A DNA stretch of 10,000 bases from Thiobacillus sp. (GTDB taxonomy: Bacteria > Pseudomonadota > Gammaproteobacteria > Burkholderiales > Thiobacillaceae): the NCBI GenBank assembly GCA_020216925.1, contig JAIWOL010000063.1, positions 1-10,000 of the forward strand. The letters run 5' to 3'. The position numbers were made by a program, and so were the translations under genes. The notes beneath the pieces are model-generated. The model was not told the DNA's origin and did no database searches. It worked only from the letters and a program-made list of their open reading frames with translations. The first letter of the stretch is position 1; every line of letters begins with the position of its first letter. Below are positions 870-5,749 of this stretch, piece by piece.

Positions 870-2360
870 TCAGGCAGGGGGTCTGCGGTACTGGATCGCC
901 TCCGCAAGGTGCGCGGTAAGGATGGACGGGCTGCCCGCCAGGTCGGCAATGCTGCGTGCCAGTCTGAGGATGCGATGGTAGGCGCGCGCCGAAAGATTCA
1001 GGCGCGCAATCGCCTGTTTCAACAGGGCTTCGCCAGCGGCGTCCAGAATGCACAGCGCGTCGATTTCGCGGCTGCCGAGCGCCGCGTTGGGTTTGCCCTG
1101 GCGATGCATCTGCCGGGCGCGCGCGGCTTCCACGCGCGCCCGGATCGCCGCGCTGGCTTCGCCCGGGACTGCGCGCATGAGTTCGTCCTCGGTCAGGGCC
1201 GGCACGCTGATCTGGATGTCGATGCGATCGAGCAGGGGGCCGGAGATGCGGCCCCGGTAGCGCGCGATTTGCTCCGGCGTGTCGCGGCAGGCCTGGGTGG
1301 GGTGGCCCAGATACCCGCAGGGGCAGGGATTCATGGCCGCCACAAGCTGGAAGCGGGCAGGAAAGTCGGCCTGCCGCGCCGCGCGTGAAATCGTGATGTG
1401 CCCGGTTTCCAGCGGTTCGCGCAGCACCTCCAGCACCTGGCGGGAAAACTCCGGCAACTCGTCCAGAAACAGCACGCCATGATGCGCCAGCGAGATTTCA
1501 CCGGGACGCGGATTGCCGCCGCCGCCCACCAGCGCCACGGCAGAAGCGGTGTGGTGCGGGGCCCGATAGGGGCGCCGGCCCCAGTGTTCTATGCGGAACC
1601 CGCCGTTGAGCGAGGCCACGGCAGCGGCTTCCAGCGCCTCGGTCTCGTCCATGGCCGGCAGAATGCCGGGAAAACGCGCCGCGAGCATCGACTTGCCGGT
1701 ACCCGGCGGGCCCGACATCAACACGGAATGCCCGCCCGCCGCCGCGACTTCCAGCGCGCGGCGCGCGGCCGTCTGGCCTTTGACATCCGCAAAATCGGGG
1801 TAGCATGGTGCCGGCGCGGTGGACGTTGCTGAAGGCGAGGCGAGCGTGCCCTGGCCGGATAGCCAGGCGCACACATCCAGCAGGCTGCCGGCGGCCAGGG
1901 TTTCGACGCCGCTTGCCAGCGCGGCTTCGCCGGCGGATACCTGCGGCAGCACCAGGCTGCGCTGTGCCGCGCGGGTGGCCAGCGCCATCGCCAGCGCGCC
2001 ACGCACCGGGCGCAGCTCGCCCGTCAGCGCCAGCTCGCCGGCAAATTCGGCGGTGGCGAATCGGGTGGCGGGGATTTGCCCCGACGCTGCCAGGATGGCC
2101 AGCGCGATCGGCAAATCGAAACGCCCCGATTCCTTGGGCAGGTCGGCCGGGGCGAGGTTGACCGTGATGCGGCGCGCCGGAAACTCGAAACGCGCGTTCT
2201 GGATCGCGGCCCGCACGCGGTCGCGTGCTTCCTTCACTTCGGTTTCCGGCAGGCCGACCAGCGTGAATGCGGGCAGCCCGTTCGCCAGATGGGCTTCCAC
2301 CACCACCTCGGGCGCAGACATGCCAGCCAGCGCGCGGCTCTTGACGACGGCGACGGCCAT
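870..2360 (-). CDS. comM: ComM/YifB family AAA+ ATPase (Mg-chelatase-like)
   Basis: The 496-residue product has the length and full domain order of ComM, formerly annotated as a Mg-chelatase-related protein. The N-terminal ChlI-like domain has GLPETEVKEARDRVRAAI and NLAPADLPKESGRFDLPIA. The AAA+ module has Walker A GPPGTGKS (217-224), Walker B VLFLDE (296-301), the Cys-rich NPCPCGYLGHP segment with Cys346, Cys348 and Cys358, and RISGPLLDRID with candidate arginine-finger residues. The Mg_chelatase_C domain ends the protein. In Vibrio and Haemophilus, ComM is a hexameric helicase that drives branch migration when incoming single-stranded DNA recombines with the chromosome during natural transformation, but it also occurs in species not known to be competent. 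The ATG abuts the TAA of ubiK with no gap and no clear Shine-Dalgarno sequence precedes it, suggesting translation by re-initiation from ubiK. It shares the terminator near 800-831. Confidence 0.95.
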   Translation of the reverse strand: MAVAVVKSRALAGMSAPEVVVEAHLANGLPAFTLVGLPETEVKEARDRVRAAIQNARFEFPARRITVNLAPADLPKESGRFDLPIALAILAASGQIPATRFATAEFAGELALTGELRPVRGALAMALATRAAQRSLVLPQVSAGEAALASGVETLAAGSLLDVCAWLSGQGTLASPSATSTAPAPCYPDFADVKGQTAARRALEVAAAGGHSVLMSGPPGTGKSMLAARFPGILPAMDETEALEAAAVASLNGGFRIEHWGRRPYRAPHHTASAVALVGGGGNPRPGEISLAHHGVLFLDELPEFSRQVLEVLREPLETGHITISRAARQADFPARFQLVAAMNPCPCGYLGHPTQACRDTPEQIARYRGRISGPLLDRIDIQISVPALTEDELMRAVPGEASAAIRARVEAARARQMHRQGKPNAALGSREIDALCILDAAGEALLKQAIARLNLSARAYHRILRLARSIADLAGSPSILTAHLAEAIQYRRPPA

Positions 2361-2639
2361 TTATGCGTCGGGGTGTGGTTTTTCCTGTTCGGCCTGGCTT
2401 TCCAGCTGGGCCAGGCGGGCTTCCAGGGCCGCCAGTTTGTCGCGCGTGCGGGCGAGCACTTCGGTCTGCACGTCGAATTCCTCGCGCGTGACCAGATCGA
2501 GCTTGCCGAGCATGGCAGCGAGGCCGGCCTTGAGATTCTGTTCGATGTCCCCGGCGGGGGATTGCCGGAACAGGTCGGCCAGCTTCTGCGCCGCCTCGTT
2601 CAGGAAAGCGGCGTTGGGGAAAGGCGAATTGGGTTTCAT
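2361..2639 (-). CDS. ubiK: UbiK (YqiC/BMFP family) ubiquinone biosynthesis accessory factor
   Basis: The 92-residue product begins MKPNSPFPNAAFLNEAAQKL, continues with an amphipathic segment, and ends in a Glu/Leu/Ala heptad-like helix (about residues 55-85) suited to a coiled coil. This is the BMFP/DUF526 family. Its E. coli member UbiK (YqiC) binds UbiJ and supports the Ubi hydroxylation complex under aerobic conditions. The reading frame extends upstream to 2756, but the ATG at 2639 is chosen because GGAG (2646-2649) lies six bases before it and because the homologous part starts there. It is the first gene of a ubiK-comM pair and diverges from the nitrogen operon; the 223-base gap between them carries the NtrC sites. 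A TACACT at 2663-2668 on this strand could be its -10 box, but I see no good -35. Confidence 0.9.
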   Translation of the reverse strand: MKPNSPFPNAAFLNEAAQKLADLFRQSPAGDIEQNLKAGLAAMLGKLDLVTREEFDVQTEVLARTRDKLAALEARLAQLESQAEQEKPHPDA

Positions 2640-2690
2640 GTTGCACTCCGGTTGACGGACGAAGTGTAGCAATGGACGCCGGAAAGCACT

Positions 2691-2707
2691 TGCACAAGGA
2701 AAGTGCG
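2691..2707. promoter_or_regulatory. Distal NtrC (NRI) enhancer site
   Basis: TGCAC-N7-GTGCG contains an exact GCAC-N7-GTGC inverted repeat, the recognised core of NtrC sites (ideal TGCACC-N5-GGTGCA). Its centre is at 2699, about 127 bp upstream of the start expected for the sigma-54 promoter at 2800-2815. Its pairing with a second site 31 bp away strongly supports the call. It also lies just upstream of the possible ubiK promoter region. Confidence 0.75.
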
Positions 2708-2721
2708 CGTCCGGCGCGGAC

Positions 2722-2738
2722 TGCACCACATGCGTGCG
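2722..2738. promoter_or_regulatory. Proximal NtrC (NRI) enhancer site
   Basis: This is a second exact GCAC-N7-GTGC (2723-2737) flanked by T on the left and G on the right. Its centre is at 2730, about 96 bp upstream of the expected start. The 31 bp between site centres equals about three helical turns, so two NtrC dimers would sit on the same face of the DNA. The two high-affinity sites upstream of E. coli glnAp2 are spaced in the same way. Confidence 0.77.
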
Positions 2739-2779
2739 TTGTATTGCGCGGTACAACAGGGAAAAACGCTAACCATATG

Positions 2780-2792
2780 AAAAATAATGATT
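2780..2792 (-). promoter_or_regulatory. Possible IHF-like bending site
   Basis: Within an A/T-rich stretch (2771-2799), the minus strand reads AATCATTATTTTT. This matches seven of nine fixed positions of the IHF consensus WATCARNNNNTTR. It lies between the NtrC sites and the sigma-54 promoter, where a bend would help looping. A/T-rich sequence gives such matches easily, so this is only a candidate. Confidence 0.25.
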
Positions 2793-2799
2793 AAAAATC

Positions 2800-2815
2800 T
2801 GGCATGCGCCGTGCT
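2800..2815 (+). promoter_or_regulatory. Sigma-54 (RpoN) -24/-12 promoter of the porin-glnK-amtB operon
   Basis: TGGCATG-N4-GTGCT aligns with the RpoN consensus TGGCACG-N4-TTGCW. It has the invariant GG (2801-2802) and GC (2813-2814) at the required spacing and only two mismatches at tolerated positions. Transcription is predicted to start near 2826, giving a leader of about 37 bases before the ATG at 2863. The NtrC sites upstream supply the activator that RpoN holoenzyme needs, so the operon should be on under nitrogen limitation. Confidence 0.85.
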
Positions 2816-2862
2816 TGAAGGGAGATGCAATTTTGCACTCTTCAACGTCGGAGAAATCGAGC

Positions 2863-3618
2863 ATGAAAAAAATCGTATCTGCACTGATGGCTGGCCTGAT
2901 GGGCGCTCCCGCGGTCGCCCTGGCTGAAGACAGCCCGCATACCTTCAGCGGCAACGTCACGCTGAGCAGTGATTATCTCTTCCGCGGCATTTCGCAAACC
3001 GGCGGCGATGCGGCGATTCAGGGTGGACTCGATTACAGCCATGCGAGCGGCTTCTATCTGGGCACCTGGGCTTCGAACGTGGGCTGGATCGAGGATTTCC
3101 AGGGATATAAATCGGGCAACATGGAGATCGACCTGTATGGCGGCTACCGGGGTGAGCTTGGCCCGGTTTCCTACGATGTGGGGGTCATTGGCTATTTCTA
3201 TCCCGGTGACAATGGCGGGGCAACCACCGGCGACACCACTGAGCTTTATATCGGCCTGGGCTGGAAATGGTTCAGCGCCAAGTACGCCTACAGCATCAGC
3301 GACGAAACGTTCGGTTTTGCCAATTCTGACGGCTCGAACTATTTCGAAATCAACGCCAGCTATCCCGTCGGCGAAACCGGCCTGACCCTGGGCGCACACT
3401 GGGGCACCTTTTCGTTCAAGAACAATGGCGCGCAGGATTACGACGACTGGAAAGTCAGCGCCGCCTACGACATGGGCAAGCTCTCTCCCGTGATGTCCGG
3501 CGTAACGCTGGGCGTGGCCTATTCGGACAGCAATGCCGGCAAGTCGGCATGGACGGATGCCAATGGCCGGTATCTGGGCGACAGCACTACCTTCGTCTGG
3601 ATCGGCAAGGCGCTCTGA
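2863..3618 (+). CDS. TorF-like putative porin (TIGR02001/Gcw_chp family)
   Basis: The 251-residue product has a signal peptide (MKKIVSALMAGLMGAPAVALA, cleavage expected after Ala21) and then alternating aromatic/polar segments rich in Gly, Tyr and Trp, as in a small outer-membrane beta-barrel. The family signature is SDYLFRGISQT...AIQGGLDYSHASGFYLGTW near residues 36-70. The family has no established biochemical function; members are annotated as TorF family putative porins. The frame runs upstream to 2815, but the ATG at 2863 is chosen because it starts the signal peptide, follows GGAG at 2850-2853, and lies downstream of the predicted sigma-54 start. It is the first gene after an NtrC/RpoN promoter and is followed by glnK and amtB. 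It may therefore pass ammonium or another nitrogen source through the outer membrane during starvation, which is inference. The C-terminal residue is Leu, not the usual barrel-ending Phe. Confidence 0.88.
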   Translation: MKKIVSALMAGLMGAPAVALAEDSPHTFSGNVTLSSDYLFRGISQTGGDAAIQGGLDYSHASGFYLGTWASNVGWIEDFQGYKSGNMEIDLYGGYRGELGPVSYDVGVIGYFYPGDNGGATTGDTTELYIGLGWKWFSAKYAYSISDETFGFANSDGSNYFEINASYPVGETGLTLGAHWGTFSFKNNGAQDYDDWKVSAAYDMGKLSPVMSGVTLGVAYSDSNAGKSAWTDANGRYLGDSTTFVWIGKAL

Positions 3619-3632
3619 ATCGCCTGAAATGA

Positions 3633-4019
<387 letters not shown>

Positions 4020-4030
4020 GGAGCCTGAAC

Positions 4031-5464
4031 ATGAAAAAGCTATTGGCCTCGTTAGGCCTGATGTTTGCCCTGTTGTCTCCCGGCCTGACGCTGGCGCAGG
4101 ATGCTGCCGCGCCGGTTGAAGAGGCGGTTGCCGTTGAAGCGGCGGAAACGGTTGCGGTCGAAGCGCCGGTAGCCGAAGCTGCGGCGCCGGATCGGGCCGC
4201 GGCTGCCGTAGAAGCCGCCGCGCCAGTGCCCGACAAGGGCGACACTACCTGGATGATGGTTTCCACCCTGCTGGTCATCCTGATGATCATTCCGGGTGTG
4301 GCGCTGTTCTACGGTGGCCTGGTGCGCGCCAAGAACATGTTGTCGGTGCTGACCCAGGTGATGGCAATCTTCTGTCTCGTCTCCGTTCTGTGGGCGGTGT
4401 ATGGCTACTCGCTGGCCTTTGGCGACGGCGGCAGCATGAACTGGGCGATCGGCGATCTTTCGAAGATGTTCCTTGCGGGCATCACCGGGGATTCGACGGC
4501 CGCCACGTTCTCCGACGGTGTGGTCATCCCCGAATTCACCTTCGTCGCCTTCCAGCTGACCTTTGCTGCCATCACCGTGGCGCTGATCGTTGGCGGCCTG
4601 GCCGAGCGGGTGAAGTTCTCGGCGCTGCTGGTCTTTGCCGTGCTGTGGTTCACCTTCTCCTACCTGCCGATCGCACACATGGTGTGGGCAAGCGGCGGCT
4701 ATCTGTTCGAGAAGGGCGATCTGGACTTCGCGGGCGGCACCGTGGTGCACATCAACGCCGGCATCGCCGCGCTGGTGGGGGCCATCGTACTGGGCAAACG
4801 CCTGGGCTACGGTCGTGACGCCATGCCTCCGCACAGCCTGCCTATGACCATGGTTGGCGCTTCGCTGCTGTGGGTGGGCTGGTTCGGTTTCAACGCCGGT
4901 TCCAACCTCGAAGCCACCGGCGGGGCTGCGCTGGCCTTCATCAACACCATTCTGGCAACGGCGGCGGCCGGTCTGGCCTGGATGTTTGCCGAATGGATGC
5001 TGCGCGGCAAACCCTCCATGCTGGGCGTGGCGTCGGGCGTCGTCGCCGGCCTGGTGGCGATCACGCCGGCAGCCGGTCTGGTCGGCCCCATGGGCGGCAT
5101 CGTCCTCGGTGCCATCGCGGGTGTGGTCTGTCTGTGGGGTGTCACCGGCCTGAAGAAAATGCTGGGTTACGACGATACACTCGATGTGTTCGGCATCCAC
5201 GGCATCGGCGGCATCGTCGGCGCCATCGGCACCGGCATTTTCGTGTCGCCGGCTCTGGGCGGAGTGGGTGTGGACGGCTACATCATGAGCAGCCAGGTCG
5301 TCACCCAGGCAACCGGTGTGATCATCACGATCATCTGGTCGGGCGTGGTGAGTCTGGTGGCCTTCAAGCTGATCGACATGACCATGGGGCTGCGCGTCAG
5401 CGAAGAACAGGAGCGCGAGGGCCTGGATACGGCCAGCCACGGCGAGCGTGCCTACAACATGTAA
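4031..5464 (+). CDS. amtB: Ammonium transporter AmtB
   Basis: The 477-residue inner-membrane protein conducts ammonium/ammonia and is gated by GlnK. It has a signal peptide (about 1-22), an unusual Ala/Val/Glu-rich segment (about 24-70), and then the hydrophobic Amt core from about 74. Key residues can be placed against E. coli AmtB: the Phe gate (Phe174 and Phe178 in FVAFQLTF; Phe287 in WFGFNAGS), Ser291 of the outer ammonium site, Asp232 in DFAGGTVVHIN, and the pore twin-His His240 and His390 (FGIHGIGG). The cytoplasmic tail keeps GLRVSEEQEREGLDTASHGERAYNM, the conserved region contacted by PII. GGAG at 4020-4023 gives a good ribosome site seven bases before the ATG. The gene is 11 bases downstream of glnK and ends the operon at a strong terminator. 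The call is secure; only the N-terminal extension is out of the ordinary. Confidence 0.97.
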   Translation: MKKLLASLGLMFALLSPGLTLAQDAAAPVEEAVAVEAAETVAVEAPVAEAAAPDRAAAAVEAAAPVPDKGDTTWMMVSTLLVILMIIPGVALFYGGLVRAKNMLSVLTQVMAIFCLVSVLWAVYGYSLAFGDGGSMNWAIGDLSKMFLAGITGDSTAATFSDGVVIPEFTFVAFQLTFAAITVALIVGGLAERVKFSALLVFAVLWFTFSYLPIAHMVWASGGYLFEKGDLDFAGGTVVHINAGIAALVGAIVLGKRLGYGRDAMPPHSLPMTMVGASLLWVGWFGFNAGSNLEATGGAALAFINTILATAAAGLAWMFAEWMLRGKPSMLGVASGVVAGLVAITPAAGLVGPMGGIVLGAIAGVVCLWGVTGLKKMLGYDDTLDVFGIHGIGGIVGAIGTGIFVSPALGGVGVDGYIMSSQVVTQATGVIITIIWSGVVSLVAFKLIDMTMGLRVSEEQEREGLDTASHGERAYNM

Positions 5465-5489
5465 CCCCTTGCTTTCTCCAGGCAAGTCG

Positions 5490-5517
5490 GGGGCGCTCTG
5501 CAGGGCGCCCCTTTTTT
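5490..5517 (+). terminator. Rho-independent terminator after amtB
   Basis: GGGGCGC (5490-5496) pairs with GCGCCCC (5505-5511) around a loop of about eight bases. Six T follow directly (5512-5517). It lies 26 bases after the amtB stop and closes the porin-glnK-amtB operon. Confidence 0.93.
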
Positions 5518-5749
5518 CGTCCGCTGTGCGGGCGGTCAACCGGCAGAAGGGGCGGTTTTCCGCGTCGGGACACAGTGCGCGCCGTCCGTGAACGTCAAGG
5601 GGCCGGGCCTTGCCGCGCATGGAAAAACGCCCGCAAGCCGCTGCGAGAAGGGCCGCGAAAGAGACGAAAACAGGCTGTCCGCACGCTCGCCGTCGTTTGC
5701 AGCAGGCACAGCGGCCCGGCGTGGCACGCCAGCCGGCGGAGGGCCTGGC
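5518..5749. other. Non-coding gap between convergent amtB and glutaredoxin-like gene
   Basis: No convincing gene is seen on either strand in these 232 bases. Open frames crossing it are GC-rich shadows with no recognisable domain. The only structure noted is a perfect 13-base palindrome, GGCGTGGCACGCC (5718-5730), 20 bases beyond the stop of the minus-strand gene. It lacks a T run on either side, so it is at best a weak part of a terminator for that gene. Confidence 0.4.

Follow-up and report, generated by a model that had tools for sequence, protein, structure and literature searches.

The window, i.e. the whole stretch of 10,000 nucleotides that was analyzed, comes from a draft genome of Thiobacillus sp. 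and carries on its plus strand a putative porin gene, glnK, and amtB, in this order and with gaps of 62 and 11 nt (Table 1). The order membrane protein, glnK, amtB is that of the nlmA-glnK-amtB operon type; the gaps and the terminator-like hairpin past amtB are compatible with cotranscription of the three genes. An intergenic region (2640-2862) divides them from a minus-strand ubiK-like gene that starts at 2639, the product of which scored above the Pfam cut-off for the BMFP family and below the NCBIfam cut-off for UbiK. The nearest named proteins and loci are mostly labeled Thiobacillus or Hydrogenophilales.

Table 1 Coordinates of genes and sequence elements in the window.
Feature	Position	Strand	Remarks
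Distal NtrC-type site GCAC-N7-GTGC, GCACAAGGAAAGTGC	2692..2706	+	Exact match; position kept in relatives
Proximal NtrC-type site GCAC-N7-GTGC, GCACCACATGCGTGC	2723..2737	+	Exact match
IHF-like element TAACCATATGAAA, between enhancer and promoter	2770..2782	+	7/9 letters; position kept in relatives
Sigma-54 -24/-12 promoter element TGGCATG-CGCC-GTGCT	2800..2815	+	10/12 consensus letters; GG-N10-GC spacing correct
Repeat TGCAATTTTGCA at predicted transcription start	2826..2837	+	TGC[AG]-ATTT-TGC[AG], kept in relatives
Likely ribosome-binding site GGAG	2850..2853	+	Read from sequence
Gcw_chp/TorF-family putative porin gene (nlmA-like), signal peptide-like N-terminus	2863..3618	+	PF09694 and TIGR02001 matches
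Hairpin AACGGGC-ATGC-GCCCGTT, porin-glnK spacer	3634..3651	+	7-pair stem
glnK (P-II family)	3681..4019	+	NF007946 183.4 bits, cut-off 181
Ammonium transporter gene, amtB-type by position and family	4031..5464	+	PF00909 415.8 bits; TIGR00836 453.8, cut-off 343.3
Intrinsic-terminator-like hairpin and T-run past amtB	5489..5517	+	10-pair stem, T-run

The first gene product matched PF09694 with 206.6 bits (cut-off 24) and TIGR02001 with 170.5 bits (cut-off 47.15). Its predicted structure is a 12-strand barrel with a mean pLDDT of 89.7, and in this model the Gcw_chp/TorF protein is an outer-membrane beta-barrel. A sequence search of solved structures returned 4 matches, the best with an E value of 0.83, and in a Foldseek search the top ranks went to larger porins, the matches listed having TM-scores of about 0.3-0.55. 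The protein differs from the 12-strand porins KdgM and NanC (PDB 4fqe and 2wjq), to which it is 10-12% identical, and their substrate cannot be transferred to it. The ammonium transporter scored below the cut-off of the AmtB equivalog model (554.5 vs 657). Its gene encodes, at 4100-4250, a long Ala/Glu/Val-rich stretch after a signal-like N-terminus, the transporter domain beginning at about residue 74.

Sequence elements upstream of the porin gene

The two GCAC-N7-GTGC sites announced in the earlier note are both exact and their centres, at 2699 and 2730, lie 31 bp apart; the start quoted for them, 2691, is one base too low. Compared by hand with the E. coli NtrC box TGCACCAnnnTGGTGCA, as given in the available part of PMC8743547, the distal site matches 10 of 14 letters and the proximal site 11 of 14. 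The near-consensus TGGCATG-N4-GTGCT promoter is likewise present as described. Its -12 C is at 2814, which puts the predicted transcription start near 2826 and the site centres at about -127 and -96, in agreement with the distances proposed before. An enhancer of this type has two boxes about 100-140 bp upstream of the start on one helix face, and the pair at -127/-96 is arranged in this way. We take this arrangement to be the enhancer-promoter geometry of glnAp2.

The assertion that such an arrangement is very unlikely to arise by chance holds for the exact 31-bp pair, but not for the single sites or the promoter alone. The window contains two single sites vs 0.44 expected, with at least two also present in 13 of 200 shuffles, and the genome contains 73 vs 50 for the reversed pattern, so that single sites barely exceed chance. 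With up to three mismatches allowed, the promoter is matched 14 times in the window vs 20.4 expected, and alone it is therefore uninformative. On these counts we rejected any claim of significance built on single sites or on the promoter alone. In contrast, the exact 31-bp pair occurs twice in the draft genome (2.04 Mb in 196 contigs, 84.6% complete) and its reversed control does not occur; arithmetic from the single-site density gives an expectation of about 0.003 such pairs. A scan of positions 2300-5700 for sigma-70 promoters found none, a result that decides little because only 0.8 were expected.

Two further elements accompany the promoter. The core consensus of IHF sites is YAA-N4-TTG, and the IHF-like element of the window is weak alone, its score being reached by 72% of shuffles. 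In an alignment of 88 loci on the promoter, 63 had a match of at least 7/9 letters whose first base stands at -30 or -31 relative to it. In the start-site repeat, pairing is possible between columns 26:37 in 41 (64/88 overall) and between columns 27:36 in all (75/88 overall) of the 42 closest loci; because pairing is possible so widely, the repeat may be a short 5'-terminal RNA hairpin or a protein site. Enhancer and promoter had been called complete in the earlier note. All the elements it named are present, but the word was too strong, as the IHF-like element, the start-site repeat, and a hairpin in the porin-glnK spacer are missing from its description.

Conservation among relatives and trans-acting factors

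We searched for the porin in 120 genomes, the window's own included, and obtained a match in 98, 67 of which belong to the window's own family. For all 107 porin loci from this search, the 260 nt preceding the porin start codon were scored, with a promoter counted at 9 or more of 12 letters and a 31-bp pair at 7 or more of 8 letters per site (one mismatch each). Three loci with a short upstream region and three cut downstream were left out of the tally; the remaining loci comprise 90 with glnK and 11 without.

The promoter was found in 88 of the 90 loci with glnK (3.9 expected from shuffles, which ignore kinship) vs 1 of the 11 without, and the 31-bp pair in 61 (0.02 from the same kind of shuffles, again blind to kinship) vs none. 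A spacing of 30-33 bp brought the pairs to 69/90, vs 0/11, and any exact site was present in 78/90 (shuffled expectation 0.8, kinship ignored) vs 0/11. Conservation in relatives, on which the earlier reading had been staked in advance, is thus borne out, with the 31-bp pair being absent from 29 of the 90 loci with glnK. Two of the 90 (L061 and L112) have no promoter though glnK follows the porin gene. One genome (G036) provides an internal control: its porin copy without glnK (L028), which is 70% identical to the window's porin, has neither element, and its copy with glnK (L048) has both. In two relatives (G005 and G048), a second copy of the porin gene (L061 and L062) has neither promoter nor sites; L061 shows a glnK match downstream and no amtB match. 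A ubiK-like match, counted in either orientation, is present in 88 of the 107 loci and in 70 of the 80 loci of the named set.

This second set consists of 80 named porin loci and overlaps the first. In it, glnK lies beside 73 porin genes, and the promoter precedes 72 of these 73, the sole exception (L218) being a locus with an upstream region of only about 76 nt. Of the 73, 58 have an exact site and 35 a pair spaced at 30-32 bp. Of the seven named loci without glnK, three (L197, L207, and L232) have promoter and exact site; the sequence ends soon after the porin gene in L197 and L232 and continues in L207. Seven Methylotenera loci and L168 have a promoter of 11-12/12 letters and no site of at least 7/8 letters within 260 nt upstream of the porin gene. 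The near-perfect sigma-54 promoter of these Methylotenera loci (L178, L205, L212, L214, L226, L229, and L230) thus has no NtrC pair nearby. All seven carry a 7/8 site 216-218 bp above the promoter, perhaps within the ubiK coding sequence, and in several of them inspection by eye shows an IHF-like stretch.

The second exact 31-bp pair of the draft genome lies upstream of glnA and is followed downstream by TGGCACGGTTGCTGCT. The glnA promoter resembles that of the porin operon in combining an exact 31-bp pair with a -24/-12 element; it differs in the distance from the proximal centre to the promoter element, which is 84 bp vs 70 bp at the porin operon. The glnA pair (L005:5588-5725) is therefore 14 bp further from its promoter. 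In a set of 200 genomes from the order that includes the window's own, only 34 have the exact 31-bp pair anywhere, and none has the reversed pattern. Of the 38 places with a pair, 30 were taken up as loci; within the sequence extracted around them, 13 have glnA, 8 porin-glnK, 4 another amt-like gene, and 5 none of these.

The genome encodes NtrC (694.7 bits, cut-off 558.6) and RpoN (468.1 bits, cut-off 277.35), as well as IhfA and IhfB (ihfA, ihfB), both over their cut-offs; several other proteins match the NtrC profile, all below its cut-off. A histidine-kinase-like frame adjoins ntrC on the same strand and is, judging from its motif, presumably NtrB.

The porin-glnK spacer

RNAalifold applied to the spacer alignment gave 0 pairs and no consensus fold, MAFFT having shifted some stems. 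We therefore looked for an explicit 7-pair stem and counted stems vs shuffles. Among the 93 spacers, 78 have a length of 40-100 nt and were used for this count; a stem of at least 7 Watson-Crick pairs was present in 39 of these 78 vs 3% of shuffles. In 40 close spacers, 89.7% of the cells pair, a value that drops to 47-66% when the partner is slid. Changes on both sides occur in 5 of the 7 pairs, and the covariation score exceeds those of all 500 shuffles. Overall, the spacers fold only modestly better than shuffles, with a median z of -1.4 for the folding energy and values under -2 in 23 of 85. The hairpin is kept by fold in many relatives, and it is a candidate mRNA element. We also considered the hairpin of the window as an intrinsic terminator and rejected this, since no T-run follows it and it was not called as a terminator; in some relatives, e.g. 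L085, a T-run does follow the stem.

Proposed regulation and alternative explanations

We consider that a glnAp2-type sigma-54 promoter activated by NtrC most probably drives a single porin-glnK-amtB transcript, with a probable bend by IHF and a probable effect of the spacer hairpin; we place the probability of this reading near 0.92. Under nitrogen starvation, NtrC would be phosphorylated and activated through NtrB and P-II signaling. Phosphorylated NtrC would then bind both sites and oligomerize on one helix face, and a bend in the DNA, probably made by IHF near 2770-2782, would bring it to the polymerase. NtrC would open the sigma-54 complex at 2800-2815, and transcription would run from about 2826 to the terminator-like hairpin at 5489-5517. 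Within the transcript, the spacer hairpin probably allows the porin mRNA to outlast or outnumber that of the distal genes. Because the standard nitrogen-starvation switch stands in front of the porin gene and is kept in many relatives, the porin is very likely part of the nitrogen-starvation response, much as reported for one relative.

The promoter could depend on sigma-54 and yet answer to a different enhancer-binding protein that uses the paired sites, as might be suggested by the further proteins matching the NtrC profile below its cut-off and by the Methylotenera loci that retain the promoter without the sites. We find this very improbable: an identical 31-bp pair precedes glnA, the letters of the sites agree with the NtrC box of E. 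coli, and one protein alone scores well over the NtrC cut-off. It seems even less probable that the sites are fortuitous, or serve only the divergent gene, and that an ordinary promoter drives the operon. The region is common to the ubiK-like gene (BMFP family), since the start of this gene is at 2639 on the opposite strand and a match to it is present in 88 of the 107 loci. However, the sites stay in register with the porin gene's -24/-12 element, and porin genes without glnK lack them; the empty sigma-70 scan of 2300-5700 (0 vs 0.8 expected) argues weakly in the same direction.

A different question concerns the spacer hairpin, which could have no effect on the product ratio, the three genes being expressed equally. 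We give this a lesser but substantial chance, as no T-run follows the stem in the window, shuffles of the window's own spacer fold just as well as the spacer itself (z -0.32), and RNAalifold proposed no consensus fold. The excess of stems over shuffles and the two-sided changes with their covariation score nevertheless argue for a hairpin effect.

A membrane-protein gene before glnK-amtB in a nitrogen regulon is not new in kind, because in Herbaspirillum seropedicae the nlmA(orf1)-glnK-amtB operon depends on NtrC, and the core finding is largely known. According to the available part of that report (PMC3023670), expression of amtB::lacZ was 21 times higher under nitrogen limitation, and NlmA was detected in membrane extracts and suggested to be periplasmic. 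The two operons are alike in placing a membrane-protein gene first, then glnK and amtB; they differ in that the first gene here encodes a Gcw_chp protein with a predicted 12-strand barrel. In E. coli, glnK-amtB is a target of the RpoN holoenzyme and NtrC (PMC8743547, available part). NtrC boxes and a sigma-54 promoter are shared by the E. coli glnA and glnK-amtB promoters and the one studied here. In contrast to the porin operon, E. coli glnK is the first gene, with no porin, and the IHF-like element between enhancer and promoter sets the present promoter apart from both E. coli promoters as described there. Azoarcus amtB and glnK were induced 9- and 7-fold, respectively (PMC8467165, available part). 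The accessible portions of two Azoarcus papers mention no gene before glnK, and those of a B. cenocepacia NtrC paper list porins and place none before glnK. In our limited literature search, nlmA was named only in the H. seropedicae paper, and we met no report of the wide map, the IHF-like element, the start-site repeat, or the spacer hairpin, the last of which was not a subject of the search. The additions made here are these four together with the predicted 12-strand barrel.

The results link an outer-membrane protein family, described in its Pfam entry as of 'unknown function', with the nitrogen-starvation regulon in many members of a large order, and they suggest a porin function to probe, namely whether ammonium or some other small source of nitrogen passes through it. 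They also add a case in which an NtrC enhancer accompanied by an IHF-like element is conserved, and they point to an mRNA hairpin as a candidate for setting how much porin is made relative to GlnK-AmtB. A broader proposal, which we regard as rather unlikely in its entirety, is that throughout the order the first effect of nitrogen starvation would be to open the outer membrane, through a dedicated 12-strand channel that admits a small nitrogen compound. A single transcript controlled by NtrC and IHF would yield more of this channel than of GlnK and AmtB, the excess being set by the start-site repeat and by the spacer hairpin, which would be kept in fold and not in sequence. With regard to NlmA, a possible member of the Gcw_chp family, a protein of this family is named from a Herbaspirillum sp., and in Noviherbaspirillum aerium a Gcw_chp-family gene lies before glnK.
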